Origin: a virus
Length of the DNA: 61,408 bases
Reading direction: 5' to 3' (one strand)
IMG/VR virus record: IMGVR_UViG_3300020392_000014
Span: 1 to 61,408 of that record
Shown here: positions 3,724-58,987 of the stretch, piece after piece
Layout: every line of letters begins with the position of its first letter
Position numbering within the stretch: position 1 is the first letter of the stretch
Translations under genes and position numbers: made by a program
Notes under the pieces: generated by a model
Databases searched by the model: none
What the model was told of the DNA's origin: nothing
Seen by the model: the letters and a program-made list of their open reading frames with translations, nothing else

Positions 3724-4188
3724 ATGATTAGTAAACACATATCAGAAAAAGAAGCTGTAAAATCAATTACCGCTTTACGTTTAGGCATCGATAATACTCC
3801 AGACGGGGATTCTTTAAACAACATGAAAATAATTGCAGAAAAAGTTTTTGAGCCACTAAGAGAGTGGGTTGGAGGCCCTATAAAAATTAATTCATTTTTC
3901 AGGTCAACTGCATTAAATCAAGCTATCGGTGGCAGCAGTCGCAGCCAACATTGCCAGGGACGTGCACTTGATATAGACGATGTTTATGGTCATAAAACTA
4001 ATAAAGAAATGTTTGAATGGATTAAAGATAATTTAGACTTTGACCAAATGATTTACGAATTTGGATCGGAAGACAACCCCGATTGGGTGCACGTATCTTA
4101 TGTCAGCGAAGATAAAAACAGAAACAGAATATTAAAAGCTGTCAGGGATGATGGTAAAACAAAATATATTGATATAACAAACGCATGA
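3724..4188 (+). CDS. M15-family peptidoglycan peptidase (endolysin)
   Basis: 154 residues matching the Peptidase_M15_3 / D-Ala-D-Ala carboxypeptidase-like fold. Visible ligands and catalytic residues: SFFRS (57-61), SQHCQGRALDID with His76 and Asp83, Glu112 in the YEFG segment, and WVHVSY with His123. These enzymes are zinc-dependent and cleave peptide cross-links of peptidoglycan. There is no signal peptide, so export would depend on the holin encoded immediately downstream, whose start overlaps this stop by 4 bases. Confidence 0.88.
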   Translation: MISKHISEKEAVKSITALRLGIDNTPDGDSLNNMKIIAEKVFEPLREWVGGPIKINSFFRSTALNQAIGGSSRSQHCQGRALDIDDVYGHKTNKEMFEWIKDNLDFDQMIYEFGSEDNPDWVHVSYVSEDKNRNRILKAVRDDGKTKYIDITNA

Positions 4189-6859: not shown

Positions 6860-9800
6860 ATGGCTATAAGATTTCTTAGTAACCAAACAATAAACGGCAC
6901 TCTTGATTTAACCAATAGGGTTAAAGTATCTGGCAATAGCACTGATCAGTATTTTTATGAAGGGGAGAGAACAGGAGTAGGTGTTACTTTAAGACTTTAT
7001 GATAATTCCAATACTATTTATTTTGATGGATACACTGGTATTGTATTAAGAGCAAATCAAATTGGGGGTTCAGGGGGTTCAATAGTTTTTACTGGAGGAA
7101 ATGTCGGAGTAGGGACGGTACCCGCAGCAAGTGTAGCTTTTGATGTTAAAGAAGCAGACACTGCAAACGATTTAATAGTTGGATTAACTGCAGGCACGGG
7201 CGCAAGAGCACAGATACGTTCAGTAGTCCAATCTGCAAATACAGAATCAGCTATATCTTTTCACACAACTCTATCTAGTTCAACACAAGAGAAACTAAGA
7301 ATATTAGCAACAGGAGCTTTATCAGTAGGTAATTCAGGAACTAATTATGGCACATCTGGACAAGTATTAACATCTACAGGCAACGCAGTTCCACAATGGA
7401 CTACACCCACAACAGGAACAATTACTGGTAGCGGCACAGCTAATACAGTTACAAAATTTACAGGCGCTTCAGCTGTAGGCGATGGGCCTATTACATTCTC
7501 TTCTAATGATTCGACTTTTTCTGGTTTAATAACAGCTACTAAAACACAAGATGCCCAGTCATTGTTTAGATTTATCAATGCTAGTACTGGAACATCTGCA
7601 ACAAGTAGGGTAGTTGCTGAAGCGGATGCTGGTTCAGTGCAACTTATTGCGGCTGGTTCAAACTTTTCTGGTGTAAGTGGTGCATGGCAAGATGCTGGTG
7701 TTGTTTGCACATCTTCAATGTCAGGTGGTTTAATATTAGCATCAGATAATGGGGTTGCAATTAATGCTAATGGTGGCACAAGAGCTTTGACAATATCTTC
7801 ATCTAACCAAAGTGCAACTTTTACAGGGCAAATTAGTGGTATTGGCGGCAACGCAGCTACACCATCTTATATATTTGAGGGAAATACAGATACTGGGTTT
7901 TTTCATCCCGCAACTGATGCAATAGGTTTTTCAACAGCAGGACAAGAAGTAATGCGTATAGATGCAAATGGAAATGTAGCTATACAACCAGGGGGAGCAA
8001 CTTTAACAAACACTAGGCTAAATGTCGTATCTGCTGATAATTATGATCCTTCATTATTTGATGGAATGGGAGGTATAAGAATAGCTAGTGCTGGTAGTAG
8101 CTCACCAGGAGATGGTAATTACACTGGAGGTATAGGATTTGCTCTTACAAGCGGTACATCAGGAATTGCAGGTGTTCAAAAAGGTTCTGATGCAGATAAA
8201 CAAGGTTTAGCGTTTTTTACACATCCTTCAAATACAGGTGGTGATGCAGCTGAAGAAAAAATGAGACTTGATGCTGATGGAAATTTAGGAATTGGAACAA
8301 TTTCGCCTAATGCTAGGTTAGAATCAAATGCTAATGTTACTTTTAGTACAATTGACACATTTGGCCAAATAGTAGCTAAATCAACATCAGGTGCATTAGG
8401 TATGATGTTAAATATAGGTGTTGATGATGGTGGTGATTTTTGTTTTTTACAATCTGTAAACAGAGGTGTTGGTGCAACGCCATTGGTGTTACAAAGATAT
8501 GCTGCAAACGTAGGAATTGGAACTACATCGCCTGGGGCTAAATTAGAAATTTTTGGTACAGGTAATACATTAAGGTTAGACAGTGCAGCAAACCAATCAA
8601 AAACAATATTACTTAGAAATGTTGGCAGTGGTACTGCTGAAATAAAAACTGACGGTGATTTAAAATTAAATGCTGAAGATTCTGGTAAAACTATACAATT
8701 TTTTACTGAAGACACTGAAAGAATGCGTATAGAGGCAGATGGAGATGTTCTTCTTACTGAGGGTAATTTTACAATGTCTGGAGCAACACCATTTATTGTT
8801 CTTTCAAATACAGCAGAAACGGAATCAGGAATTACATTTGTAGATAGTGCAGATCCGGGTCAATCAGCAAAAATTACTTATGATGCAAGTGGCAATGATT
8901 TCAAATTCTATAACAACTCTACTAATGTAAGAATGGTTATTCAAAATGATGGTAAGGTAGGAATCGGAACAACCGCAGCTACCGCTAACTTAGAAGTTGG
9001 TGGTGCTAATTCAACACTCAGAGTTGGGCCAAGATACCCTAGTGGTGGTGATAGAGATTTTGTTGATTTGATTGCTCATGGAACTGATAGTAAAGTATTA
9101 TCAAACAATGAAAGATTTCATATAGAAAATAATTCTGGAGATATAATTATAAACCCTTTATCTAATGTCGGAATCGGAACAACTTCGCCTTTAGGTAAAT
9201 TAATGGTAAGAAAAGACCAAGCAGGTAGTCCAACAAGAATTATTGTAAGTAATAATGGAACAGTACAATCTGGTACAACAGCAAGATTATCTTTTTACGA
9301 AGGTACATCAGAAAAAAATTATATTGAAAGAAGGCGTGATGGAAGTGGTAAACTTGCGTTTGTGGCTCCTGCAAATGACAACCCTTTTGTATGGGAAAAT
9401 ACAAGTGGTGAGTTTATGAGGTTTGTAAATAGTAGAGTAGGAATCGCAACAACTAATCCTATTTTTGGATTAGATGTTAATAGCACAGGTGCATTTGGTG
9501 GAACTGGTAGTTTTAGAACATTTGTAAGTGGTAGTGCTAGTGGTAGTTTTATTGAGTTTGGAACTAATGCTGATAATGATTCTTTAGGTGCTTTAGGAAC
9601 TTTTGCTAGTGCATTTATTTTTACAACAAATCAAGGATTAGGGTTTAAATGGCAATATGCTGGTAATGATAGAATGCGATTAACAACTGGTGGTACATTA
9701 ACAGTTTCAGGTGATGTAGTTGCTTATGGATCACCGTCAGATGTAAGGTTAAAAGAAAATATAAAAACTATAGAGTCAGCTTTAGATAAAGTAAGTAAAT

Positions 9801-10021
9801 TACAAGGTGTAACATTTGATTGGAAAAAATCAGACAACATATTAGATATAAAAGAAGACATAGGGTTTATAGCACAAGATGTACAAAAGGTAGTACCAGA
9901 ACTTGTAAGAGAAAATGAAGATGGCATGTTGTCAATGAGGCATCAAGGCGTGGTGCCAATATTGCTTGAAGCAATAAAAGAGCTAGAAGCTAGAGTTAAA
10001 GAATTAGAAAAAAAACAATAA
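6860..10021 (+). CDS. Large tail fibre with S74 intramolecular chaperone
   Basis: 1053 residues. The N-terminus MAIRFLSNQTINGTLDLT is shared with the two following large fibres and is a probable attachment segment. The shaft carries several N-V-G-I-G-T-T-S-P-x-x-K-L-E-V repeats. The C-terminus is an S74 chaperone domain starting at Ser960 (SDVRLKENIKTI), with the Ser960/Lys965 pair that performs self-cleavage in this family, then FDWKK, GFIAQDVQ and a trimer-forming helix ending ELEKKQ. The domain assists trimerisation and is released after folding. A host-recognition role is inferred. Confidence 0.9.
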   Translation: MAIRFLSNQTINGTLDLTNRVKVSGNSTDQYFYEGERTGVGVTLRLYDNSNTIYFDGYTGIVLRANQIGGSGGSIVFTGGNVGVGTVPAASVAFDVKEADTANDLIVGLTAGTGARAQIRSVVQSANTESAISFHTTLSSSTQEKLRILATGALSVGNSGTNYGTSGQVLTSTGNAVPQWTTPTTGTITGSGTANTVTKFTGASAVGDGPITFSSNDSTFSGLITATKTQDAQSLFRFINASTGTSATSRVVAEADAGSVQLIAAGSNFSGVSGAWQDAGVVCTSSMSGGLILASDNGVAINANGGTRALTISSSNQSATFTGQISGIGGNAATPSYIFEGNTDTGFFHPATDAIGFSTAGQEVMRIDANGNVAIQPGGATLTNTRLNVVSADNYDPSLFDGMGGIRIASAGSSSPGDGNYTGGIGFALTSGTSGIAGVQKGSDADKQGLAFFTHPSNTGGDAAEEKMRLDADGNLGIGTISPNARLESNANVTFSTIDTFGQIVAKSTSGALGMMLNIGVDDGGDFCFLQSVNRGVGATPLVLQRYAANVGIGTTSPGAKLEIFGTGNTLRLDSAANQSKTILLRNVGSGTAEIKTDGDLKLNAEDSGKTIQFFTEDTERMRIEADGDVLLTEGNFTMSGATPFIVLSNTAETESGITFVDSADPGQSAKITYDASGNDFKFYNNSTNVRMVIQNDGKVGIGTTAATANLEVGGANSTLRVGPRYPSGGDRDFVDLIAHGTDSKVLSNNERFHIENNSGDIIINPLSNVGIGTTSPLGKLMVRKDQAGSPTRIIVSNNGTVQSGTTARLSFYEGTSEKNYIERRRDGSGKLAFVAPANDNPFVWENTSGEFMRFVNSRVGIATTNPIFGLDVNSTGAFGGTGSFRTFVSGSASGSFIEFGTNADNDSLGALGTFASAFIFTTNQGLGFKWQYAGNDRMRLTTGGTLTVSGDVVAYGSPSDVRLKENIKTIESALDKVSKLQGVTFDWKKSDNILDIKEDIGFIAQDVQKVVPELVRENEDGMLSMRHQGVVPILLEAIKELEARVKELEKKQ

Positions 10022-10562: not shown

Positions 10563-13238
10563 ATGGCTATCAGACTCCTAAGCAATGAAACTATTGATGG
10601 TAACTTAACATTTGGTGCAGTTAATCCATTTTCACAAAGCGCAAATGTTTTAGATGGTACAGGTACAGATGGTGCAAGAATTAGGTCAGCAGTTTCAGCA
10701 GCAGGTACACCGACATTTTCTAATTCTGATGATACTGATACTGGAATGTTTTTTCCAAGTGCAGACTCAGTTGCTTTCAGTACAGGCGGCACCACAGCAT
10801 TAACTATAAACTCATCTCAAAACGCAACTTTTGCAGGTGATATTAATATAGCAGCAGCAAAAAAATTAAAGTTTAATGCTAATTCTTTTATGACACCTGA
10901 AAACAATACAAGTGGTGCAGAAATCAGCACAGCAGGAACTTTTATTGTAAAAACTGGCTCTACTCCAACTTTAGGATTAACATTAGATGCATCACAAAAC
11001 GCAACTTTTGTTGGCACTATAAATACAGGTAAAGATAAATTCCTAAGATTTATTGCTGGTGCATCGGGTTCGGATGCTTCAATATTATTTGGTGACTCAG
11101 CAGGAACAGGTGGTAGTTTAACCTTTCAAAGAAATTCTGATGCAGCTTCTATATTAACTCTTAATGGAAATAAGGATGCAACTTTTGGGGGCAATATTGT
11201 AATGGGTGGTAACCAAATAAAATTTGCTGACAATGGTAAATTAATGATGGGTGATTCAAATGATTTACAAATATACCACAATGGCTCTAATTCTATTATA
11301 GACAATAATACAAATGATTTAATTATTAGATGTGATAGTGATGATATAAAAATACTATCAGAAGATGATATTGTATTAAGAGACAATGATGATAGTACAA
11401 ATTTTATACATTGTATCAATGGCGGTGCTGTAAAATTATACCATAATGGAAGCGAAAAGTTTGACACTACCAGTGGTGGGGCTAGAACAACAGGCACACA
11501 CATCATTTCAGATGCGGGCTCACCCATGCTTGAAATAGATGACACCACAGCTAATAAAGGGGAGTTATTAATATTTAGAGCTGAGGGTACTGCAGCAGAC
11601 ACAACGTTTTATCAATCAAAAGGTATTACCGGCCCTACAGGCAGTGAAACATACGGAGCTCATGTATTTCAAATATCAGATTCTGTTAACCCACTCACAT
11701 CTTTTACTTTAAAAGCAGATAGAAATGCTGCTTTTGAAGGCAACGTAGGTATAGGGCCTCAATCAGGCGGAGCTTTAACACAAAAATTACAAGTATCTTC
11801 TGTAACAAATGCTGATGGAATAATTATAACAGGAGATGGCACTACCATATCTAGCGGTGATTATAGAAGAATAGGTTTTAGATATGACGATACAGATGAA
11901 AGTTTTGAAAGTGAAATAAGATTTGTAGTTACAGATGAAAATGCTCACGGTGGTCAAATGCAGTTTGTTACTGACAACTCATCTGGAACAAAATCAATAG
12001 CAATGACTATTGACAAAAATCAGCGTGTAGGTATAGGAACAACGAACCCATTATCTCCATCTAAACTACAGATTGAAGGTGGTGATTTTTGGTTAAATAG
12101 AAATAATGCACCTACAAATATTTATTTAAGAATAAATAAAAGGGCTGGTCAAGATGGCGGTATTTTATTATATGGAAATAGTGCTTTAGATTGGCAAATA
12201 CTAAACGCTAGCGGTACAAGAGATTTAAATTTCTATTCTTATGGCGTTAGTAGCGTTGTTGCAATGATACAAAACTCTACAGGTAGAGTTGGAATAGGAA
12301 CAACTTCGCCTAGTGCTCAGTTACATCTTTTTAATTCTGCTGCAAGTGGTCAACCAATGCTTCAAGTAATGAGCCATGCAACTGCTGCTGGTAGTTTTAC
12401 TAATAATTACATGGCTGAGTTTTGCCATGCGTTTTCTGGCGTTAATCATGGTATGTTAGTCAAAAACAATGAAACCGATAATGCTAGAAGAACTTTAGAT
12501 ATAGCAGATGGTAATGGAATATTTGCAACTTTTACAAACGGGAAATTAGGAATCGGAACAACAAACCCAACAAAACAATTACATTTACTTCGTACAACAG
12601 GTGATGTGCGAGGTATTATGGTTGAAACAAGTGTTGCCACTAGTTATGCTGAAGTTCAAGTAAAAGCCGCAAGTGAGTTTAGAATAGGTACAGGTGGTAG
12701 TAGTACAACTCCAAATGGTCAGTTTTATGTATATGATGCTACAGCCGGCGCACATAGGTTTGATATTGATGCTAATGGAAACGTAGGTATTGGACAGATT
12801 AACCCTTCGTATAAATTAGAAGTAAACGGAACAGCGAATATTGTATCACACTTAACAGCTCACTGTTTGGGAGTTGGCACATCAGCCCCATTCGCAAATG
12901 GAGTAATAAGAGCAGCTGGAGATATTATCGCATATTATTCTTCTGATAAAAATTTAAAAGATAATATAACTAAAATAGAAAAACCTTTAGAAAAACTAGA
13001 AAAAATTAACGGATATGAGTTTGATTGGAATGATAAACAAGAATTGTATGAGGGTCATGATGTTGGTGTTGTTGCACAAGAAATAGAAGAAGTCTATCCA
13101 CAACTTGTTGAGACTCGTGAAGACGGATATAAAGCTGTCAAGTATGAGAAATTAGTACCTTTACTAATAGAAAGTATTAAGGAGCTAAAAAAAGAAATAG
13201 ATAATATTAAAACTAGATCATGGCAATCAGATTACTAA
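10563..13238 (+). CDS. Large tail fibre with S74 intramolecular chaperone
   Basis: 891 residues. The N-terminus MAIRLLSNETIDGNLTFG is paralogous to the flanking fibres. The shaft includes DLQIYHNGSNSIIDNN, typical of fibres, and V-G-I-G-T-T repeats. The C-terminal S74 domain begins at Ser794 (SDKNLKDNITKI) with Lys799 as the partner residue, followed by YEFDWND, GVVAQEIEEV and a charged C-terminal helix. The stop lies 19 bases inside the next fibre gene, suggesting coupled translation. It has its own promoter, so expression may differ from the first fibre. Confidence 0.9.
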   Translation: MAIRLLSNETIDGNLTFGAVNPFSQSANVLDGTGTDGARIRSAVSAAGTPTFSNSDDTDTGMFFPSADSVAFSTGGTTALTINSSQNATFAGDINIAAAKKLKFNANSFMTPENNTSGAEISTAGTFIVKTGSTPTLGLTLDASQNATFVGTINTGKDKFLRFIAGASGSDASILFGDSAGTGGSLTFQRNSDAASILTLNGNKDATFGGNIVMGGNQIKFADNGKLMMGDSNDLQIYHNGSNSIIDNNTNDLIIRCDSDDIKILSEDDIVLRDNDDSTNFIHCINGGAVKLYHNGSEKFDTTSGGARTTGTHIISDAGSPMLEIDDTTANKGELLIFRAEGTAADTTFYQSKGITGPTGSETYGAHVFQISDSVNPLTSFTLKADRNAAFEGNVGIGPQSGGALTQKLQVSSVTNADGIIITGDGTTISSGDYRRIGFRYDDTDESFESEIRFVVTDENAHGGQMQFVTDNSSGTKSIAMTIDKNQRVGIGTTNPLSPSKLQIEGGDFWLNRNNAPTNIYLRINKRAGQDGGILLYGNSALDWQILNASGTRDLNFYSYGVSSVVAMIQNSTGRVGIGTTSPSAQLHLFNSAASGQPMLQVMSHATAAGSFTNNYMAEFCHAFSGVNHGMLVKNNETDNARRTLDIADGNGIFATFTNGKLGIGTTNPTKQLHLLRTTGDVRGIMVETSVATSYAEVQVKAASEFRIGTGGSSTTPNGQFYVYDATAGAHRFDIDANGNVGIGQINPSYKLEVNGTANIVSHLTAHCLGVGTSAPFANGVIRAAGDIIAYYSSDKNLKDNITKIEKPLEKLEKINGYEFDWNDKQELYEGHDVGVVAQEIEEVYPQLVETREDGYKAVKYEKLVPLLIESIKELKKEIDNIKTRSWQSDY

Positions 13239-17194: not shown

Positions 17195-17419
17195 ATGGAT
17201 ATTAGGAAAATTTCTATAGGAGCAGACTATAAATCTGGTGCTATGCACTACATAGTAGGTCAAGAAGTTTTAGGAGGCACATATGTTATACACCTTATAC
17301 AGCAAGACGAAGATCAGCAATCTTACAAAATTTGGATAGAAAAAAGCAAAGAGCTTTTACTGTGGAAAGAGTTTAAAATGACCTTACCCATATCACTTGA
17401 ATATAATATCAATTTTTAA
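17195..17419 (+). CDS. Small protein of unknown function, 74 aa
   Basis: Begins MDIRKISIGADYKSGAMHYI; mixed alpha/beta with a central beta strand TYVIHLIQQDEDQQSYKIWI. It overlaps the next gene by one base and looks like part of the same operon as the GroES-like gene. I recall similar short proteins upstream of terminase genes in Bacteroidota phages but know no function. Confidence 0.6.
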   Translation: MDIRKISIGADYKSGAMHYIVGQEVLGGTYVIHLIQQDEDQQSYKIWIEKSKELLLWKEFKMTLPISLEYNINF

Positions 17420-17988
17420 TGCGTTCACCCTTTTGTTTTATTGTACGTCCTGTTTCTGGTAGGAGATACAGTAATATAAAAAAAATTTCAGGTTTAGATT
17501 TTATAACAAGCGTTTCATTAGAAGACCATAAATCATCTAATAGATTTGCGGAAGTAATTTCCACACCGATAGATTATACAGGTGAAATAAAACCTAAAGA
17601 TATTTTATTGGTTCATCACAACGTTTTTAAGTTTTATTACGACATGAAAGGTGTAGAAAAAAGCGGAAGAAGTTTTTTTCGTGATGACTTATTTTTCATA
17701 GACTTTGATCAATTCTTCCTATATCACAACCATAAAGAGTGGAGATGTCACTCCAAATATTGTTTCGTGAAGCCTGTACAGGCAAAAAAATCTTATCTTA
17801 GTAAAACAGGAAAGGAAGAACCATTGATTGGCACTATTAAATATATTAATAAAGAACTTGAAGATATGGGTGTCAAGGTTGGGGATGAAATATCTTTTAC
17901 ACCTGAAAGTGAATATGAATTTTATGTAGAAGGTGAAAAGTTATATAGGATGTTTACAAATAATATAACAATGGTTTTAAATGACTAG
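17419..17988 (+). CDS. GroES-like co-chaperonin candidate
   Basis: 189 residues with two GroES-reminiscent halves: residues about 44-100 (EVISTP ... IKPKDILLVHHN ... FFRDDLFFIDFDQFFLY) and about 136-188 (IGTIKYINKELEDMGVKVGDEISFTP ... EGEKLYRMFTNNITMVLN). The V-K-x-G-D-x-I-x-F and G-E-x-L-Y-R-x-x-x-x-x-I patterns parallel the strands of the GroES beta barrel. The mobile loop is not obvious. The same phage encodes GroEL at 60202, which supports a chaperonin partner, though sequence similarity to GroES is weak. Alternative: an uncharacterised pre-terminase protein. Confidence 0.5.
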   Translation: MRSPFCFIVRPVSGRRYSNIKKISGLDFITSVSLEDHKSSNRFAEVISTPIDYTGEIKPKDILLVHHNVFKFYYDMKGVEKSGRSFFRDDLFFIDFDQFFLYHNHKEWRCHSKYCFVKPVQAKKSYLSKTGKEEPLIGTIKYINKELEDMGVKVGDEISFTPESEYEFYVEGEKLYRMFTNNITMVLND

Positions 17989-18256
17989 CAAAGAAATAAA
18001 AGAAAAAATTATAAAGGCTGGGGAGCAAGCTGTAATACAGCTTATAAAGGTTGCAAAAGAAGATATTATAAAGTATGATAAAGATGATGAGTTAGCAGCA
18101 GACAGATTAAAAAATGCAGCTGCAACAAAAAAACTTGCAATATTTGATGCTTTTGAAATATTGAAAAGAATAGAAGATGAAAAGGATTTGTTAGAAGGGA
18201 ACGAATTAAAAACAAAAAATATACCAAAAGGGTTTGCAGAATCAAGATCAAAATAA
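17981..18256 (+). CDS. Putative small terminase subunit
   Basis: 91 residues, predicted all-helical and highly charged (EIKEKIIKAGEQAVIQLIKV ... DDELAADRLKNAAATKKLAI). It overlaps the large terminase gene by 23 bases and sits where a DNA-recognition subunit is usually found. There is no recognisable helix-turn-helix, so the assignment comes from position and size. Confidence 0.5.
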   Translation: MTSKEIKEKIIKAGEQAVIQLIKVAKEDIIKYDKDDELAADRLKNAAATKKLAIFDAFEILKRIEDEKDLLEGNELKTKNIPKGFAESRSK

Positions 18257-20483
18257 ACTATTTACTACACTTCATGACGTGGTGCCTAAAAATGTTTTGT
18301 CAAGTAAAAACAAAGCAAAAACATGGCAATATGGATATAATGAAAAATATGATATTGTTGTTATTACAAAGTCAGGACAAATAAACGACATTATAAATAT
18401 AAATGGATTGAGAATTGCTTTACCTAAACAACCTAAAGATGTGTACAAAAGGTGTGACAAATCTGTAAATCAGTATTGGGAACCAAAAGTTTTACCGAAA
18501 GAATTAAAACGTATACAATCTATATTTCAATGGCATGAAACACCAGCAGCTTTTAAAAACAAATGGGTGGATTACATAGAGCAAGAGTTTGATAGAAGAG
18601 AAGATGGTTTTTGGTTTATGAATAATGGATTGCCTACTTACATTACAGGAACTCATTATATGTATTTACAGTGGACAAAAATAGATGTAGGACATCCTGA
18701 TTTTAGAGAAGCAAACAGAATATTTTATATTTACTGGGAAGCATGCAAAGCAGACAAAAGGTCTTTTGGTATGTGTTACTTAAAAATAAGACGTTCAGGC
18801 TTTTCTTTTATGAGTTCTTGCGAAGGAGTTAATACTGCAACCATAACAAAAGATGCAAGGGTTGGCATACTTTCAAAAACAGGTGCTGATGCAAAAAAAA
18901 TGTTTACTGATAAAATAGTACCTATAAGCAATAACTATCCATTCTTTTTTAAACCAATACAAGATGGTATGGATAAGCCAAAAACAGAATTAGCATATAG
19001 AGTTCCAGCATCAAAGATTACAAAAAAAAATATGTATGTGGTGGCAGAGAGTGAGCTTGAAGGCTTGGACACAACTATAGACTGGAAGAACACATCTGAC
19101 AATAGTTATGATGGTGAAAAACTACAGCTACTTATACATGATGAGAGTGGAAAATGGGAGCGACCAGAAAATATTTTAAACAACTGGCGTGTTACAAAAA
19201 CCTGTTTACGTTTGGGTAGTAAAGTTATAGGTAAATGTTTGATGGGTTCCACCTCTAACGCATTAGATAAAGGTGGTAAAAACTTTAAAGATTTATATGA
19301 ATCATCTTGGTGTATAAATAGAAATTCAAATGGACAAACTAAAAGTGGTTTGTATAATTTATTTATACCTATGGAATGGAACATGGAAGGATTTATAGAT
19401 AAGTATGGTATGCCAGTGTTCAAAACCCCTAGTAAATCTGTAGAAGGTATTGATGGAGAAGATATTTATCAAGGAGCTATTGATTATTGGGAAAACGAAG
19501 TAGAGTCACTAGCATCTGATCCTGATGCTTTAAACGAATTTTATAGACAGTTTCCAAGAAGTGAGTCACACGCATTTAGAGATGAAAGTAAACAATCTAT
19601 ATTTAATTTGACAAAAATATATCAACAAATAGATTACAATGATTCAATAAATATTGCACACCATGTAACCCAAGGAGGCTTTCATTGGAAAGATGGTATA
19701 AAAGATTCTAAGGTTATATGGAGCCCAAATAAAAGAGGAAGATTTTTTGTATCTTACATTCCTAAACCGACTCTACAAAATAATGTAATTTTGAAGAACG
19801 GTAAAAAATATCCAGGTAACGAGCATATAGGTTCATTTGGTTGTGACTCTTATGACATATCTGGGGTTGTAGTAGGTAGAGGATCAAATGGTGCGCTTCA
19901 TGGATTAACTAAGTTTAATATGGATGAAGCACCTAGTAATGAATTTTTTTTAGAATACATTGCTAGACCTCAAACTGCAGAAATATTTTTTGAAGAAGTG
20001 TTGATGGCTTGTGTGTTTTACGGCATGCCAATTTTGTGCGAGAACAACAAACCAAGATTGTTGTACCATTTTAAAAACAGAGGGTACAGAGGTTTTTGTT
20101 TGAATAGGCCAGATAAGACATATAACAAACTATCAAAAACAGAAAAGGAGTTGGGTGGTATACCTAACACCTCAGAAGATGTAAAACAATCTCACGCTTC
20201 GGCGATTGAGTCTTATATAGAAAAGCACGTAGGCTTTGACTTTGAGGGCACACACCGAAGTAAAGATGAAATAGGTAGAATGTATTTTCAGAAAACACTT
20301 GAAGATTGGGCAAAGTTTGATATATCCAACCGAACTAAGTTTGACGCTTCAATAAGCTCTGGATTAGCAATTATGGCAAATCAAAAACACTTGTATACTC
20401 CAATTCAAAAACAATCAAAAATAAGCATTAACTTTGCAAGATATAACAATACTAGCTCAGTGAGTCAATTAGTTAATAGATGA
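18234..20483 (+). CDS. terL: Large terminase subunit
   Basis: 749 residues. The ATPase half has a P-loop position reading KIRRSGFSFM (184-193), followed by ILSKTGADAKKMF, a Walker B-like LLIHDE (299-304) with catalytic Glu304, and the coupling motif GSTSN. The nuclease half includes GSFGCDSYD near residue 545, matching the first acidic cluster of RNase H-fold terminase nucleases. It packages DNA through the portal encoded next (4-base overlap). The P-loop lacks the usual G-K-S/T, which is a variant rather than damage because the frame and other motifs are intact. Confidence 0.85.
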   Translation: MQNQDQNKLFTTLHDVVPKNVLSSKNKAKTWQYGYNEKYDIVVITKSGQINDIININGLRIALPKQPKDVYKRCDKSVNQYWEPKVLPKELKRIQSIFQWHETPAAFKNKWVDYIEQEFDRREDGFWFMNNGLPTYITGTHYMYLQWTKIDVGHPDFREANRIFYIYWEACKADKRSFGMCYLKIRRSGFSFMSSCEGVNTATITKDARVGILSKTGADAKKMFTDKIVPISNNYPFFFKPIQDGMDKPKTELAYRVPASKITKKNMYVVAESELEGLDTTIDWKNTSDNSYDGEKLQLLIHDESGKWERPENILNNWRVTKTCLRLGSKVIGKCLMGSTSNALDKGGKNFKDLYESSWCINRNSNGQTKSGLYNLFIPMEWNMEGFIDKYGMPVFKTPSKSVEGIDGEDIYQGAIDYWENEVESLASDPDALNEFYRQFPRSESHAFRDESKQSIFNLTKIYQQIDYNDSINIAHHVTQGGFHWKDGIKDSKVIWSPNKRGRFFVSYIPKPTLQNNVILKNGKKYPGNEHIGSFGCDSYDISGVVVGRGSNGALHGLTKFNMDEAPSNEFFLEYIARPQTAEIFFEEVLMACVFYGMPILCENNKPRLLYHFKNRGYRGFCLNRPDKTYNKLSKTEKELGGIPNTSEDVKQSHASAIESYIEKHVGFDFEGTHRSKDEIGRMYFQKTLEDWAKFDISNRTKFDASISSGLAIMANQKHLYTPIQKQSKISINFARYNNTSSVSQLVNR

Positions 20484-22915
20484 AAGAAGTAGAAATAAAC
20501 ATTCAAGCTGCTGCCTTCCCTGATCAGTTTGCTTCCGACGCTGTAAAAGATACTGTAGAATATGGATTACAAATAGGGCAAGCTATACAATATGAATGGT
20601 TCAGAAGAGATAATGGCTCTTGTAGATTCTACAATCAATCAGCTGAGTTCATGCGCCTACGTCTGTACGCACGTGGGGAACAATCCATAGCAAAATATAA
20701 AAATGAATTAGCCATCGATGGAGATTTATCTTATTTAAATTTAGATTGGAACCCAGTGCCTATTATACCTAAGTTTGTTGACATAGTAGTTAACGGCATG
20801 TCTGACAGGTTATTTAAAGTAAATGCCTACGCTCAAGACGCTATGTCAGCAGAAAAAAGAAGTGAATTTCAAAAAGCTGTAGAGGGTGATATGATAGCAA
20901 AACCTTTATTCAATCAAATTGAATCTGATTTTGGTTTAAATGTTTTTACTACGCCTGAAGAGGATTTACCAGAAACAGATGAAGAAATGGAATTGTATAT
21001 GCAAATGAAATACAAACCAGCTATAGAAATTGCGGAAGAAGAAGCTATAAATACTTTGTTTGATGAAAATCACTATAACGACATCAGAAGTAGAGTGGAT
21101 TATGATATAACCACATTAGGTATCGGAATAACAAAACATCAGTTTTTGGCTGGACAAGGGGTAGTGATAGATTATGTAGACCCTGCGAATGTAGTGTACA
21201 GTTACACAGAAGACCCGTATTTCAAAGATTGTTTTTATTGGGGTGAAATTAAAACAGTCCCTATGACTGAGCTCATTAAAATTGACCCCACACTTACAAA
21301 TGAAGATTTAGACCAAATATCCAAATACAGTCAATCATGGTATAATTATTACAACAATCAGCAGTTTTTTGAGAACAGTATGTTTTATAGAGACACAGCT
21401 ACAATATTATATTTTAATTATAAAACCACACATTCTTTTGTTTATAAAAGAAAAAAATTAGCTGATGGTTCATACAAGACAGTAGAAAAAGACGATCAAT
21501 TTAATCCACCTGCCGAAATGATGGAAGAAGGAAACTTTGAAAGGGTTGAGAAAAAAATTGATGTATGGTATGATGGTATTATGGTTATGGGAACAAATAT
21601 AATGTTGAAGTGGGAACTTTCAGAAAATATGGTTAGACCAAAGTCGGCAAATCAGTTTGCTATGCCTAACTACATAGCATGTGCACCCAGAATGTATAAA
21701 GGTGTTTTTGAAAGTTTAGTAAAAAGAATGATTCCTTTTGCGGACTTAATACAAATGACACATTTAAAAATTCAACAAGTTGTAGCACGAGTTGTACCAG
21801 ATGGTGTATTTATAGATGCTGATGGATTGAACGAGGTAGATTTAGGTACTGGTAATGCTTACAATCCTGAAGACGCACTAAGATTATATTTTCAAACAGG
21901 TAGTGTTGTAGGAAGAAGCTATACACAAGATGGCGAGTTTAATAATGCAAGAGTGCCTATTCAACAGCTTACGGCTAATAGTGGAGCAGGAAAAATGCAA
22001 ATGTTGATTCAAAACTATAATCATTATTTAGATATGATAAGAGCAGTTACAGGATTAAATGAAGCTCGTGATGGTTCTACACCAGATCCAAACTCTTTAG
22101 TTGGTGTACAAAAGTTAGCAGCACTAAATAGTAACACAGCCACTAGACATATATTAGAAGGCAGCTTGTACATTACTCGTACATTAGCAGAATGCCTATC
22201 AATTAGAACTGCTGATATATTAGAGTTTGCAGATTTTAAAGATGAATTTGCTATGCAGATAGGTAAATATAATTTAAAAATATTAGAAGATATAAAAGAA
22301 TTGTATATATACGATTTCGGAATATTTATTGAGCTTTCACCGGATGAAGAAGAAAAAGCTTTACTAGAACAAAATATACAAATGGCTTTATCTAAACAAG
22401 ATATAAGTTTAGAGGATGCAATAGATATAAGAGAAATGCACAATTTGAAAATGGCTAATCAGTTGTTAAAACTTAAACGTAAACAAAAACAGGAAAGAGA
22501 GCAGCAAGCCAAAATGCAAGAACAACAAATGGCTGCTCAAATGCAAATGCAAGCAGAACAAGCAAAAGCACAGGGAGAAGCTCAAAAAATACAAATGGAG
22601 TCTCAAGCCAAGATACAATATAGACAGGCAGATGTAGCTTTTGAAATAGAAAAGCTGAAAGCAGAAGCTGAATTAAAAAGAAATTTAATGGCAACTGAAT
22701 TTCAGTTTCAAATGCAAATTAAAGGTGTAGAGCAAGCTGGGATAAGTCAAAGAGATAAAAATAAAGAAAAAGCAAAAGACGATAGAATAAGTCAACAATC
22801 TACACAACAATCAAAATTGATAGAACAAAGAAAGAATAATCTACCATCGATAAACTTTGAATCGAATGAAGACAGTTTGGATGGTTTTGATTTGGCTGAA
22901 TTTGAACCTAGGTAA
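20480..22915 (+). CDS. Portal protein
   Basis: 811 residues, directly after the terminase. The N-terminal and central parts (FVDIVVNGMSDRLFKVNAYA, ILYFNYKTTHSFVYKRKKLA, DMIRAVTGLNEARDGSTPDP) follow the layout of large portal proteins of podoviruses. The C-terminal 150 residues are a Q/M/A/K-rich coiled coil (MQEQQMAAQMQMQAEQAKAQ) probably forming the inner portal barrel. It forms the ring at the packaging vertex. One-base overlap with the PAP2-like gene. Confidence 0.85.
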   Translation: MKEVEINIQAAAFPDQFASDAVKDTVEYGLQIGQAIQYEWFRRDNGSCRFYNQSAEFMRLRLYARGEQSIAKYKNELAIDGDLSYLNLDWNPVPIIPKFVDIVVNGMSDRLFKVNAYAQDAMSAEKRSEFQKAVEGDMIAKPLFNQIESDFGLNVFTTPEEDLPETDEEMELYMQMKYKPAIEIAEEEAINTLFDENHYNDIRSRVDYDITTLGIGITKHQFLAGQGVVIDYVDPANVVYSYTEDPYFKDCFYWGEIKTVPMTELIKIDPTLTNEDLDQISKYSQSWYNYYNNQQFFENSMFYRDTATILYFNYKTTHSFVYKRKKLADGSYKTVEKDDQFNPPAEMMEEGNFERVEKKIDVWYDGIMVMGTNIMLKWELSENMVRPKSANQFAMPNYIACAPRMYKGVFESLVKRMIPFADLIQMTHLKIQQVVARVVPDGVFIDADGLNEVDLGTGNAYNPEDALRLYFQTGSVVGRSYTQDGEFNNARVPIQQLTANSGAGKMQMLIQNYNHYLDMIRAVTGLNEARDGSTPDPNSLVGVQKLAALNSNTATRHILEGSLYITRTLAECLSIRTADILEFADFKDEFAMQIGKYNLKILEDIKELYIYDFGIFIELSPDEEEKALLEQNIQMALSKQDISLEDAIDIREMHNLKMANQLLKLKRKQKQEREQQAKMQEQQMAAQMQMQAEQAKAQGEAQKIQMESQAKIQYRQADVAFEIEKLKAEAELKRNLMATEFQFQMQIKGVEQAGISQRDKNKEKAKDDRISQQSTQQSKLIEQRKNNLPSINFESNEDSLDGFDLAEFEPR

Positions 22916-23451
22916 TGTTTGATAATTTCAACTGGCATAAATACAAAACTGTAAAATACCCACCTGATAATTCTTTAAAGACACTTGGAGAAATAAAATC
23001 TCTTTTGTCAAAACCTATGGACAAAAGTTTTGCTAACAAGTTTGATGATATATTTAAAGTTTTTAAAAACTTATTTTCAAATAGAACAAGAAAGTTTCCT
23101 GATAAATTAGTGCAAGAAATAATTGTGGAAAGTAGAAAGCCGATTATGAAAATAAAAAATTATCACAATAGAAAAAGACCAAATGTGGTTGCAAAACAAT
23201 TTTCTATTAATTTACCATTTGTAAAAATGGCATCAGCACAAACTCCTGCTTTTCCTTCAGGACATTCAGCACAAGCTTTTTTATTAAAAGAAGTCTTAAG
23301 TGATATGTTTCCAGAAATGACACCGGAGTTTGAAAAGGCAGCTAAAAATATATCTAAAAGCAGAATAATGGCAAATGTTCATTACGAATCAGATAAAAGC
23401 ACTGGTGAAAAGCTGGGGATGGATTTGTATAACCACTACAAAACCATCTAA
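22915..23451 (+). CDS. PAP2-superfamily phosphatase, soluble
   Basis: 178 residues carrying the complete three-part PAP2 / acid-phosphatase signature: K-x6-R-P at Lys81-Arg88-Pro89, PSGH at 114-117, and S-R-x5-H-x3-D at Ser149-Arg150-His156-Asp160. These residues bind and hydrolyse phosphate esters in lipid phosphatases, class A acid phosphatases and vanadium haloperoxidases. No signal peptide or membrane helix is evident, unlike membrane PAP2 enzymes. It is translationally coupled to the portal gene and followed by the scaffold gene, so it may be packaged or act on nucleotides or lipids during infection. The substrate is unknown. Confidence 0.82.
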   Translation: MFDNFNWHKYKTVKYPPDNSLKTLGEIKSLLSKPMDKSFANKFDDIFKVFKNLFSNRTRKFPDKLVQEIIVESRKPIMKIKNYHNRKRPNVVAKQFSINLPFVKMASAQTPAFPSGHSAQAFLLKEVLSDMFPEMTPEFEKAAKNISKSRIMANVHYESDKSTGEKLGMDLYNHYKTI

Positions 23452-23495: not shown

Positions 23496-24632
23496 ATGGA
23501 AATAAAAGTAAAAGACATAGGCTTGTCTGAAGAAAAGTCTAAAGCAGAAATTGAACAAGAACTTCTTGAAAAGCATGAAGAGAAGTTTGAAGACTCTCAA
23601 GCAGAACCTGAAAAGGTTGAGGCAACAGAAGTGAAAGAAGAAAAGAAAGAGGAACCTGTAGCCGAAGAAGTGAATGAAGAAAAAGCTCCCTCGTCAGAGT
23701 TAAGTGACGAAGACGTTCTTACATATATTAAAAATAGGTATGACAAGGAGATAACTTCAGTAGATGATTTGTTAGCTGAAAAAGAATCAGCTCCCGAATT
23801 ACCTGAAGACGTTTCAATGTATTTGAAATACAAACAAGAAACGGGCCGTGGTATTGAAGATTTCTATAAAACACAAAGAGATTTTGACACCATGGATGAT
23901 GATTCTTTGATAGCTGAATATATAGCATATAACGAAGAAGGGTTAGATGCAATAGATATTCAAGATATTATGGACGATAAATTTGGTTTTGATGAAGAAC
24001 TAGATGAGCCCAAAGATATTAAAAGAAAAAAACTATCAAAGAAACGTGAGCTTGCAAAAGCAAGAAAATTTTTGAACGAACAAAAGGATAAGTATAAAGT
24101 TCCGCTTGAGTCAAGTGGGGATGGATTATCTGCAGATCAACAAGAAAATTTAGATGCTTACAAGAAATATATCGACGAATCTAATACTATTAAGGAAGCA
24201 GCAGAAAAGCGCTATGATTATTTTCTAACGAAAACTAAAGAAGTTTTTAATAGTGATTTCAAAGGTTTTGATTTTACTTTAGGAGAAAATAAATATACCT
24301 ATAAGCCTGGCACTTTTGAAGAGCTATCTAATACTCAGTCCGACATAAATAATTTTGTCAAAAAATACACTGATGAAAATGGCTTAATGAAAGATGCAGC
24401 TGGTTATCATAAAGCTTTATCTGTAGCGATGAACCCTGAAAAGTTTGCGCAATACTTTTTTGACCAAGGTGTTTCCTCAGCCGTAGATAATGTTACAAAA
24501 AAATCAAAAAACATTAATATGGAAATGAGACAATCACCGCAAGTTACAATAAAAGATGGGCGTAAAATCAGAAGCATTGGCAACCAAAGTAGCGGAAGAG
24601 GACTCAAAATTAGAAGTATTAAAAAAAGTTAA
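23496..24632 (+). CDS. Head scaffolding protein
   Basis: 378 residues, very acidic in the N-terminal third (EEKKEEPVAEEVNEEKA), predicted helical throughout, with a basic C-terminal tail (GRGLKIRSIKKS). Placement directly upstream of the major capsid gene and this charge pattern (acidic body, basic capsid-binding tail) are typical of phage scaffolds. It should be absent from mature virions. The family assignment is contextual. Confidence 0.75.
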   Translation: MEIKVKDIGLSEEKSKAEIEQELLEKHEEKFEDSQAEPEKVEATEVKEEKKEEPVAEEVNEEKAPSSELSDEDVLTYIKNRYDKEITSVDDLLAEKESAPELPEDVSMYLKYKQETGRGIEDFYKTQRDFDTMDDDSLIAEYIAYNEEGLDAIDIQDIMDDKFGFDEELDEPKDIKRKKLSKKRELAKARKFLNEQKDKYKVPLESSGDGLSADQQENLDAYKKYIDESNTIKEAAEKRYDYFLTKTKEVFNSDFKGFDFTLGENKYTYKPGTFEELSNTQSDINNFVKKYTDENGLMKDAAGYHKALSVAMNPEKFAQYFFDQGVSSAVDNVTKKSKNINMEMRQSPQVTIKDGRKIRSIGNQSSGRGLKIRSIKKS

Positions 24633-24653: not shown

Positions 24654-26114
24654 ATGGCAGTAAATGCAGTCCCAGGATTTGACTTACAACCATCTGCACA
24701 GCAGGTGCCACTAAGTACAAATTATATTACCAATTTTGATTTCTTGAATCAGTATCTACCAGATACATATGAAAAAGAATTTGAAAGATATGGTAACAGA
24801 ACAGTAGCATCATTCTTAAGAATGGTAGGCGCTGAAATGCCTTCAAACTCTGACCTTATCAAATGGGCAGAGCAAGGTAGATTACACGTAAAATACCAAG
24901 ATTGTACATCAGGTTCAGCAGCAGGTGCTGGTACAAGAAGTGCACAATGGACTATTCCAAACAATACATCAAACTTTAACCCAGCTCTAGCAGGTGGTGC
25001 AAAAGCAGTATTAAGAGTAGGACAAACAGTAATGATTTCTGATAAAACAGCAGGATCGAACCTACACAACAAAGGTATTGTTACAGTAGCTCCAACAGCG
25101 GGTAACCCTAATGTGGTAACTATTGCTTATTATGAAGCAACAGGACAAGCTATGGGTGCAGGTGTAGCGTGTGATATTTGGATTTATGGTTCTGAGTTCA
25201 ATAAAGGAACAAACGGAATGATAGGTTCAAACGAATCAGATGATTTAATTTTCGATAACAAACCAATTATTATCAAAGATAAGTACCAAGTATCAGGTTC
25301 TGATATGGCACAGATTGGTTGGATTGAAATTTCAGGCGAAGACGGAGTAAATGGATACTTATGGTATCTTAAGTCTGAGCACGACACAAGATTAAGATTT
25401 GAAGATTACTTAGAAACAGCTATGCTCGAAGCAGTACCAGCAGGTGCAGGTTCAGGTGCAGGTGACTTCTTACAAGGAACAGGAGCTGGTTTATCAGCAG
25501 CAAACCTTAATGGTTCTGACGGTGTATTCTTTGTTGTTGAAGACAGAGGTAATGTATTTGGAGGTGGAAACCCACAAAACTTAGCTCAATTCGACAGCAT
25601 TATCCAAAGACTAGATAAGCAAGGTTCTATTGAAGAAAATGTAATTTTCGTAGACAGACAGTTTTCATTTGACATTGACGATATGTTAGCAACTCAAAAC
25701 TCTTACGGAGCTGGCGGTTCTTCATACGGTTTATTCGACAATGATAAAGACATGGCTTTAAATCTTGGCTTTACAGGATTTAGAAGAGGTTATGATTTTT
25801 ACAAGTCTGACTGGAAATATCTAAACGATCCTACAATGAGAGGTGACTTAGGTGGTGGAGTTATCAATGGGTTATTAGTACCTGCTGGTTCTACTACAGT
25901 TTATGACCAAATTCTTGGTAAAAACGCTAAGAGACCATTCTTACACGTGAGATATAGAGCTTCAGAAACTGAGGACAGAAGATACAAAACTTGGATTACT
26001 GGTTCAGCTGGCGGTGCAAGAACTTCTGACCTTGATGCAATGGAGGTCAATTTCTTATCTGAAAGAGCTGTTTGTACTTTAGGTGCTAACAACTTCTTCT
26101 TATTTAAGGATTAA
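24654..26114 (+). CDS. Major capsid protein
   Basis: 486 residues (MAVNAVPGFDLQPSAQQVPL...). It follows the scaffold gene with a 21-bp A/T leader and is followed by a strong terminator. Motifs such as NFDFLNQYLPDTYEKEF, a central WIEISGEDGVNGYLWYLKS and the C-terminal CTLGANNFFLF fit an HK97-fold capsid protein of Bacteroidota podoviruses. Codon choice differs from neighbours, with many C-ending codons (ttc, aac, gac, tac), as expected for the most highly expressed gene. Confidence 0.85.
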   Translation: MAVNAVPGFDLQPSAQQVPLSTNYITNFDFLNQYLPDTYEKEFERYGNRTVASFLRMVGAEMPSNSDLIKWAEQGRLHVKYQDCTSGSAAGAGTRSAQWTIPNNTSNFNPALAGGAKAVLRVGQTVMISDKTAGSNLHNKGIVTVAPTAGNPNVVTIAYYEATGQAMGAGVACDIWIYGSEFNKGTNGMIGSNESDDLIFDNKPIIIKDKYQVSGSDMAQIGWIEISGEDGVNGYLWYLKSEHDTRLRFEDYLETAMLEAVPAGAGSGAGDFLQGTGAGLSAANLNGSDGVFFVVEDRGNVFGGGNPQNLAQFDSIIQRLDKQGSIEENVIFVDRQFSFDIDDMLATQNSYGAGGSSYGLFDNDKDMALNLGFTGFRRGYDFYKSDWKYLNDPTMRGDLGGGVINGLLVPAGSTTVYDQILGKNAKRPFLHVRYRASETEDRRYKTWITGSAGGARTSDLDAMEVNFLSERAVCTLGANNFFLFKD

Positions 26115-57735: not shown

Positions 57736-58668
57736 TTAAAATGTTAATGTTAATTGAATTGATTTATTTATTTTATTTATCATTTGTTTTATGCCTCGTA
57801 TCATTTTAGAGTGAATAGCACAAACCTCCCTCTTAATAATCTCAGTTTGTTGCTCATCTATTTCATATGTTAGCACACTTCTCTGTGTGGTCGCACATGC
57901 TTTGGCAGTCGAGCCAGACCCTGCGAACATATCCAAAACGATTTCAAAGGGCTTAGTTGATGCTTTCACAAGCTCAATGAGTAGCTCGGTCGGTTTGGCT
58001 GTTTGGTACTTAGAATCGGCTTTAAATTGGTACAGGGGCTGAAGTTCAAAATCTAAATCAGCCCTTTTGTTACCACTTTTAGAAAATGCAAAGATATGCT
58101 CTTGTAATTGATGACCACAAAAAGCATAAGGTTTGCCATTTTTGTAAAGTTTTTGAAATTTAATCGACTGATGACATTCTTTTAACCCAGACAAAGTGAA
58201 TGCCTTTTTATATTCTGCAAGTGCTTTAATATTTGTTTTACTTGCTGAAAACATAAAGAAAATAGGGGTGTCATTTGTCTTTGTTAATTTAACAACATCT
58301 CGCATAAAAATTGTAAATTCTTGACTGCTCATTAATTGATATTTTGTAAGGTTTCTATTACCCCCCTTTGCCCCTGGGATTATGTAAGGGGGGTCAAGAA
58401 AAATCATATCAAATTTTGCTTGTTCTTGCACAAGTTTTTTAATCTCGTGCTTTGCATTACCTGACTGAATTATTGAGGCAGTCTCGCCCTGTTTAGTTTT
58501 AAGAGTGTAAACCCCTTTGGCTATTCTTTCGAGTTCTCCAGACTTAGCACCCTGTCCCAATATTCGCCGAATAGTGGGATTGGGTAGCTTAGTAATGGCT
58601 TCAATTTCGCTAATACTCGCCTGAATACGACCCTTTAAAACTTCGTTTACTATGTCCTTTTGTTTCAT
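57736..58668 (-). CDS. DNA adenine/cytosine-N4 methyltransferase with N-terminal wHTH
   Basis: 310 residues from the ATG at 58668, chosen to avoid overlap with the upstream gene (an ATG 10 codons earlier exists). Residues 1-58 resemble a winged helix (ITKLPNPTIRRILGQGAKSG ... GVYTL). The catalytic motif IV DPPY is at 92-95 and the S-adenosylmethionine motif I FAGSGST at 248-254, in the IV-before-I order of beta-type amino-methyltransferases. No restriction partner is adjacent, so it is probably an orphan enzyme protecting phage DNA or regulating early genes. Confidence 0.87.
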   Translation of the reverse strand: MKQKDIVNEVLKGRIQASISEIEAITKLPNPTIRRILGQGAKSGELERIAKGVYTLKTKQGETASIIQSGNAKHEIKKLVQEQAKFDMIFLDPPYIIPGAKGGNRNLTKYQLMSSQEFTIFMRDVVKLTKTNDTPIFFMFSASKTNIKALAEYKKAFTLSGLKECHQSIKFQKLYKNGKPYAFCGHQLQEHIFAFSKSGNKRADLDFELQPLYQFKADSKYQTAKPTELLIELVKASTKPFEIVLDMFAGSGSTAKACATTQRSVLTYEIDEQQTEIIKREVCAIHSKMIRGIKQMINKINKSIQLTLTF

Positions 58669-58672
58669 AGTT

Positions 58673-58987
58673 TTATTTTTTATAGTTATAGTTATCAATG
58701 TCCCAGACCTTGCCAGAATTTACAAGCTCATCATAGATGCCCATGTAACAAACTTGAGCGAGGTTTTGGGGGTTGTCTAAGTGTGAAAAATCGTACAAAT
58801 GCAAATCCTTAATGACCTTTATTTGGTCGCTGTAATACATTAAAGCATGGTCAATTTCTTGGTTTAGATAATCGTTAATACAATCATCAAACACCAATTC
58901 AAAATGCTCTCTGTCTAGCGATTCAGTTTCTAATTGGTCATTAATCATATCAATAAAATCTGTTTCAAAGTCGTTAATATATCCCAT
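58673..58987 (-). CDS. Acidic protein of unknown function, 104 aa
   Basis: Begins MGYINDFETDFIDMINDQLE. Very acidic, helical, with YYSDQIKVIKDLHLYDF in the middle. It overlaps the next gene upstream by one base. Low pI and early position are compatible with a DNA-mimic anti-host protein, but this is speculation. Confidence 0.55.
   Translation of the reverse strand: MGYINDFETDFIDMINDQLETESLDREHFELVFDDCINDYLNQEIDHALMYYSDQIKVIKDLHLYDFSHLDNPQNLAQVCYMGIYDELVNSGKVWDIDNYNYKK

Follow-up and report, generated by a model that had tools for sequence, protein, structure and literature searches.

Class A acid phosphatases are secreted with a signal peptide, and the acid phosphatases that scavenge phosphate are exported. 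The active sites of PgpB-type enzymes, membrane lipid phosphatases of the same PAP2 superfamily, face the periplasm. Proteins stored in phage heads are known from other systems. According to passages of PMC3012670, the internal proteins of T4 are diverse defense proteins with a common capsid-targeting sequence, and a passage of PMC9026906 states that the first ten residues of T4 IPIII are enough for packaging. Small core genes also lie between portal and scaffold in T4. PhicrAss001, a short-tailed phage of Bacteroidota, stores phage proteins in its capsid, those named in parts of PMC10172136 being gp45, gp46, and RNA polymerase-related proteins; this cargo differs from the protein considered here in that the word “phosphatase” is absent from that text. 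Here, we describe a PAP2-superfamily gene in the head block of a 61,408-base virus record (IMG/VR IMGVR_UViG_3300020392_000014, positions 1–61,408; this whole stretch is referred to as the window) and compare it with these systems.

The open reading frame (ORF) occupies positions 22915–23451 of the plus strand, starts with ATG, and encodes 178 residues with an isoelectric point (pI) of 9.8. As the initial annotation had stated, its start shares one base with the portal stop codon in a TAATG overlap at 22913–22917 (+; TAA at 22913–22915 and ATG at 22915–22917). The three PAP2 signatures reported there are likewise intact and in order, separated by 24 and 31 residues: K-x6-R-P at 23155–23181 (+; K81, R88, and P89, residues 81–89), PSGH at 23254–23265 (+; P114-S115-G116-H117), and S-R-x5-H-x3-D at 23359–23394 (+; S149-R150, H156, and D160, residues 149–160). 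The limits applied to the motif and its spacing were those generally known for PAP2 proteins. A chance motif was rejected, given that the full motif was present in only one of the 180 stop-to-stop frames of at least 60 residues in the window and in none of 200,000 shuffled versions of its sequence. The match to Pfam PF01569 (PAP2) barely exceeded the cut-off (E 2.2e-6; 27.9 against 27.2 bits), and the same model was matched at E ≤ 0.01 by all 11 aligned homologues.

The best AlphaFold2 model, built from 11 sequences, had a predicted local distance difference test score (pLDDT) of 94.1 and a predicted template modeling score of 0.90. Foldseek returned acid phosphatase 7f17 as the top PDB match (E 5.3e-6), and in a second structure comparison PhoN (2a96) aligned over 171 residues, spanning model residues 1–178, with a Z score of 17.9 and a root mean square deviation of 2.6. 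Acid phosphatases filled the first 13 rows of this ranking and membrane PAP2 enzymes followed at Z ≤ 14.6. A profile search matched PhoN at E 6e-9, and one 176-residue protein in a viral structure library matched with a template modeling score of 0.94 and 39% identity. The comparison with class A acid phosphatases that had been proposed as a check thus gave an all-helical PAP2-like fold over the whole length; with the PSGH and S-R-x5-H-x3-D residues also conserved in homologues, neither of the outcomes named beforehand as contrary to a PAP2 assignment arose. Hydropathy analysis bore out the claim of solubility, because no hydrophobic segment or hydrophobic N-terminus was found (highest 19-residue Kyte-Doolittle mean, 0.65). 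The several transmembrane helices of membrane lipid PAP2 enzymes such as PgpB and UppP are lacking, as is the secretion signal of class A enzymes. Given the fold match to acid phosphatases and the lack of a hydrophobic segment, the shape is that of a class A acid phosphatase without an export signal, and the predicted structure supports well the assignment of the window protein as a soluble PAP2-superfamily phosphatase of this shape.

The likeness to class A acid phosphatases (PhoN, PhoC; 2a96, 1d2t, 7f17) comprises the whole-length fold and all catalytic motifs. By contrast, those structures have 211–237 resolved residues compared with 178 and are 15–21% identical to the window protein, which is encoded in a phage head block and has no signal peptide. 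The class A signature around the second motif is G-S-Y-P-S-G-H-T, whereas the corresponding loop in the window protein reads PAFPSGHS. The NCBIfam PhoC model was matched at E ≤ 0.01 by 7 of 11 family members but not by the window protein. Vanadium haloperoxidases also appeared in the structure ranking (Z 11.6–13.6); their lower rank and much longer chains disfavor this assignment, although the fold alone does not decide it.

PAP2 superfamily membership, together with the presence of membrane lipid phosphatases among the fold matches (5jki, Z 14.6; 6ebu, Z 14.3), would fit an undecaprenyl pyrophosphate or phospholipid phosphatase that perturbs the envelope at a late stage of infection. However, the protein has neither a membrane segment or anchor nor an export signal, soluble acid phosphatases outrank all lipid enzymes (PgpB, Z 6.6–9.0), and a periplasm-facing site of the PgpB type would be out of reach for a cytosolic protein. 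A membrane lipid phosphatase is therefore disfavored, the undecaprenyl pyrophosphate activity suggested in the initial annotation is weakly founded, and envelope disturbance by such an enzyme is considered highly improbable. The window protein is very probably a catalytically active phosphatase, and its substrate is probably a small soluble phosphomonoester. Nucleotides would be the favored class, on the grounds of the acid phosphatase fold and of the NT5C and cytidylyltransferase associations seen in T4-like relatives (see below). The protein would then act as a phospho-histidine hydrolase, removing phosphate from small phosphomonoesters, with H156 presumably as the phosphorylated nucleophile, H117 as the general acid, and K81, R88, and R150 holding the phosphate, roles that we take over from the PAP2 family.

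The PAP2 gene is under purifying selection, with ratios of nonsynonymous to synonymous substitution rates (dN/dS) of 0.02–0.32 in 52/66 pairs with dS <2.5 among 12 sequences. All 11 signature residues are invariant in the 61 distinct same-type sequences (≥46% identity; mean column conservation, 0.71), and the same holds for 28 distinct stand-alone copies below 46% identity, with the exception of S149 (27/28). Given that the search patterns spanned PSGH, the surroundings of K81, R88, and P114, and the surroundings of K81 and H156, this conservation is partly due to construction. Six copies found through their portal only (L025, L037, L040, L047, L049, and L055; loci are designated by L numbers) retain all 11 residues.

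The position of the gene was then compared with that in related phages. The terminase, portal, and capsid proteins of the window match head families in PHROGs. The terminase large subunit (TerL; 18234–20483, +; phrog_6681, E 1.6e-177; start codon according to the ORF listing) is followed by the portal gene (20480–22915, +; phrog_6547, E 3.1e-147), PAP2, a scaffold-like ORF beginning 44 bases after PAP2 (23496–24632, +), and a probable major capsid gene (24654–26114, +; phrog_13704, virion structural protein). The scaffold-like protein matches a family without assigned function (phrog_16786, E 5.2e-11), and its label is inferred from its position and from its counterpart in phage phi40:1, where the product of the gene at the same place was detected in virions by tandem mass spectrometry (MS/MS). 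The portal is 72% identical to that of a Manatee Spring genome, 49% to that of Maribacter phage Panino, 48% to those of Flavobacterium elemo phages, and 33% to that of Cellulophaga phi38:1. The phi38:1, phi40:1, and elemo phages share the TerL-portal-scaffold-capsid order with the window but differ from it in having no PAP2 gene in the portal-scaffold junction; PAP2 was absent from this interval in MW202828 (an assembled genome), Panino, one elemo phage, phi38:1, and phi40:1.

Searching for the PAP2 family yielded 126 viral loci, and the 80 best were retained. In all 76 newly fetched loci the portal gene lay 0–332 bases upstream of PAP2, and a scaffold homologue lay downstream in each of the 74 whose contig continues; the other four loci had the same order. 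A basic gene of 95–108 residues separated portal and PAP2 in 7 of the 76. When loci were instead selected by portal similarity (best 80 of at least 597 contigs), the junction was readable in 72 and contained PAP2 in 9, other small genes in 9, and no more than 87 bases in the remaining 54. The description of PAP2 as lying inside the head operon thus holds for close homologues, in which the surveyed portal-PAP2-scaffold order is kept, but the gene is an accessory insert missing from most portal-selected relatives, and its family also occurs elsewhere. On a portal tree of 97 rows (two without a usable portal and eight with unreadable junctions were dropped), the PAP2 label required five changes, or six with the added PAP2 loci. 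L112, with PAP2, and L027, with an empty junction, are sister rows on short branches with closely similar flanks, so change at this site is recent. These comparisons indicate that related phages gain and lose the PAP2 gene at one exact spot in the head block, and the portal-scaffold junction seems to serve the head operon as a slot for accessory genes. Other occupants of the slot were observed in L031, L034, L038, L039, L042, L050, L053, L054, and L099. Three of these loci have 44-residue ORFs and L099 has two small genes, whereas the other five encode lysine-rich proteins of 102–118 residues, of which some end in a glycine-rich, amphipathic-looking C-terminus.

The constant portal-scaffold position in close homologues raises the question whether the protein employs the PAP2 fold in a morphogenetic or minor structural role in the head, or acts on phosphorylated head components during assembly. 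The charge of PAP2 would fit such a role, because the protein is basic in 61/61 sequences (pI 8.8–10.0; 9.8 in the window) and opposite in charge to the portal, scaffold-like, and capsid proteins (pI 4.8). However, 54 of the 72 readable relatives manage without PAP2, and retention of the catalytic residues in 61/61 sequences goes beyond the need of a purely structural role. A head protein of this kind is considered improbable.

The family extends beyond the slot. No PHROGs family matched the window PAP2 at E ≤ 0.01; the sole match at E ≤ 1, to a tape-measure family (0.041), and a Pfam match to Pox_A22 (0.057) were taken as noise. In a phage collection no record gave a match across 80% of the protein, and seven gave weak partial matches (25–42% identity, 29–62% covered). 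Recent capture from a host was set aside, as no donor was identified in one genome scan; its 15 relatives were just 22–38% identical, and 12 of them are labeled Emticicia, Cytophaga, Cytophagaceae, or Cytophagales. The DNA pattern TP[AS][FY]PSGH[SA][AT]Q retrieved at least 80 loci, of which 79 were parsed and L142 was read separately; 17 of the 79 belong to the head-slot type. Sister podophages account for a large group, with PAP2 proteins ∼39–45% identical to that of the window. A TerL like that of the window was present in 28 of 45 records searched, one of them of the slot type; in the other 27, TerL identity was mostly 64–69% and the distance between PAP2 and TerL was about 3 to 36 kb. In the PAP2 phylogeny, slot-type copies form one clade with a support of 100 (11 rows in the deduplicated set, from 23 slot sequences). 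Midpoint rooting places this clade among sister-podophage copies, with moderately supported adjacent branches, which suggests that PAP2 entered the head block once, with gains and losses thereafter. PAP2 domains were also observed inside larger proteins: L266 540–6563 (2007 residues; 194-kb contig), L213 (538 residues; 60 kb), and L261 (478 residues; 232 kb).

Relatives in T4-like phages occupy two kinds of position. PAP2 lies between the small (phrog_445, E 7.3e-44) and large terminase genes in L197, beside the large terminase gene in L245 and L260, and ∼1 kb upstream of it in L243 and L214. In a fusion-type group, PAP2 forms the N-terminal part of proteins of 667–797 residues (seven complete ones), and the genes lie downstream of those for UvsX and gp41. 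The gene for NT5C, a 5′-deoxyribonucleotidase, is directly upstream of PAP2 in 10 of 14 fusion-type loci. A 999-residue ORF in L209 (2917–5916) encodes a fusion of a cytidylyltransferase-like domain (PF01467) with a PAP2 domain. Parts of this protein have relatives in Pelagibacter phage HTVC008M; fused nucleotide-handling enzymes of the L209 type could hint at the substrate.

A link to the virion comes from small basic proteins encoded near PAP2. In L210, the product of an ORF 245 bases past PAP2 shares 46% identity over 69 residues with gp80 of phi38:1. The counterpart of gp80 in phi40:1, which shows no difference in the aligned part, is listed as structural on experimental MS/MS evidence, as are the phi40:1 portal, scaffold-like, and capsid proteins. 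In eight sister loci, 41 of 63 neighbors shorter than 300 residues within 3 kb of PAP2 have a pI above 9.5, and PAP2 itself bears a basic C-terminal extension in L222, L238, and L246. A phrog_23735-type domain, which has a relationship to Pfam DUF5872 and occurs in proteins with DUF6321, was present in 24 of the 79 parsed loci and lay ≤510 bases from PAP2 in 21 of these compared with 4.5 expected from other ORFs, a count to be read with the caution that the threshold was set after inspection of the data and that basic composition may add weak matches. The 24 loci include L241 and L243, where the domain is 14 bases away, and L265, which holds a gp23-like capsid gene. In L099 a phrog_23735/DUF6321-like gene sits in the portal-scaffold slot itself. 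The window encodes a phrog_23735 protein (944–1186, +; pI 11.5), of the kind that adjoins PAP2 in sister phages, and a small basic DUF6321 protein (1186–1458, +; PF19846, E 6e-16). Both belong to a run of seven successive small ORFs at 13–1986 (+; 64–113 residues, pI 9.6–11.5), relatives of which surround PAP2 in sister phages.

A possible further link is provided by the N-termini of the fusion-type PAP2 proteins, which resemble the starts of T4 IPII and IPIII and so recall the T4 capsid cargo (IPI–IPIII and Alt) with its capsid-targeting sequence. Among the loci treated as T4-like, a loose capsid-targeting pattern was present in 15 of 20 PAP2 proteins compared with 6 of 132 other ORFs, and a strict pattern in 11 of 20 (8 of 15 non-redundant) compared with 1 of 132. 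On the basis of these relatives, packaging of the window protein in the head and its delivery are given about an even chance. PAP2 would be made together with the portal and capsid proteins, become enclosed during procapsid assembly, and be released along with the DNA into the next cell. The complete proposal of a head-associated cargo phosphatase that is packaged, released with the DNA, and acts on small phosphomonoesters is the favored reading but is put forward tentatively, with a probability a little short of even. The opposite charge of PAP2 to the portal, scaffold-like, and capsid proteins, its constant place next to the portal in close homologues, and the position of the L197 gene between the two terminase genes also count in its favor.

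Several observations weigh against this proposal. The window protein, which begins MFDNFNWHKY, has no T4-type capsid-targeting sequence and no homology to the IP proteins. The strict pattern was found in 0 of 913 podophage-locus ORFs, and the 11 strict matches all fall in a single clade, at one locus beside replication rather than head genes. The pattern was framed after the sequences had been seen, and the 20 proteins include those of L224, L249, and L241, three loci that showed no T4 homologue; leaving out L224 and L249 changes the numbers to 11/18 strict and 13/18 loose. In addition, the sister-phage PAP2 genes lie outside the head block, the match to phi38:1 gp80 is between short lysine-rich proteins, and the remaining four of the five AlphaFold2 models reached a pLDDT of just 68–77. 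No virion data were found for any PAP2-bearing phage.

This last point, together with the patchy accessory distribution of the insert (five to six changes on the portal tree), would suit an accessory late enzyme that is not packaged and acts solely in the producing cell, for instance to recover phosphate or nucleotides where sea water is poor in phosphate, the slot serving for late expression. The solubility of the protein, its fold, which is that of phosphate-scavenging enzymes, and the proximity of T4-like relatives to replication genes and NT5C are consistent with such a role. However, scavenging acid phosphatases are exported and the window protein has no export signal. An enzyme confined to the producing cell would also give no reason for the recurrent location in head or terminase blocks or for the T4-like N-termini of a single clade. 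It is regarded as a serious possibility, only slightly less probable than the complete cargo proposal. The cargo phosphatase proposal can also be widened: signal-less phage acid phosphatases may be a widespread, recurrent head cargo in unrelated marine phage lineages, found at portal-scaffold or terminase junctions or with capsid-targeting N-termini, often with DUF5872/DUF6321-like basic proteins. Entering the cell with the genome, they would remove phosphate from host nucleotides or nucleotide-type defense signals at the start of infection. In this general form the proposal is speculative and rather unlikely.

Other features of the window were also recorded. A GroES-like co-chaperonin family protein is encoded shortly 5′ of the terminase gene (17419–17988, +; phrog_13932, E 5.4e-23), with a similar gene at the equivalent place in phi38:1, Panino, and the elemo phages. 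A Peptidase M15 family protein (3724–4188, +; PF08291, E 1.3e-15) is a candidate endolysin. Two large tail-fiber-like proteins (6860–10021 and 10563–13238, +) have similar C-termini, with an intramolecular chaperone domain (Peptidase_S74, E 2.6e-15) in the second. A DNA methyltransferase is encoded at 57736–58698 (−; PF01555, E 3.3e-18).

Viral PAP2 proteins are already known as annotations. Among the literature matches listed, none was recognized as describing such a phage head-slot phosphatase. A term search of PMC5512222 gave neither “PAP2” nor “phosphatase”, and where PAP2 stood alongside cyanophage in the passages retrieved, these concerned a Klebsiella gene and a mimivirus-like contig. 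If the cargo phosphatase proposal is correct, head cargo would plug in at the portal-scaffold junction of these marine phages, and a class of enzymes familiar from scavenging phosphate in the periplasm would have been turned into an injected phage tool. With the family, its positions, and its partner domains now named, packaging and substrate become directly testable. Even if the protein is not packaged, the locus clearly exemplifies the gain or loss of an accessory gene at a single precise position within a compact head operon.

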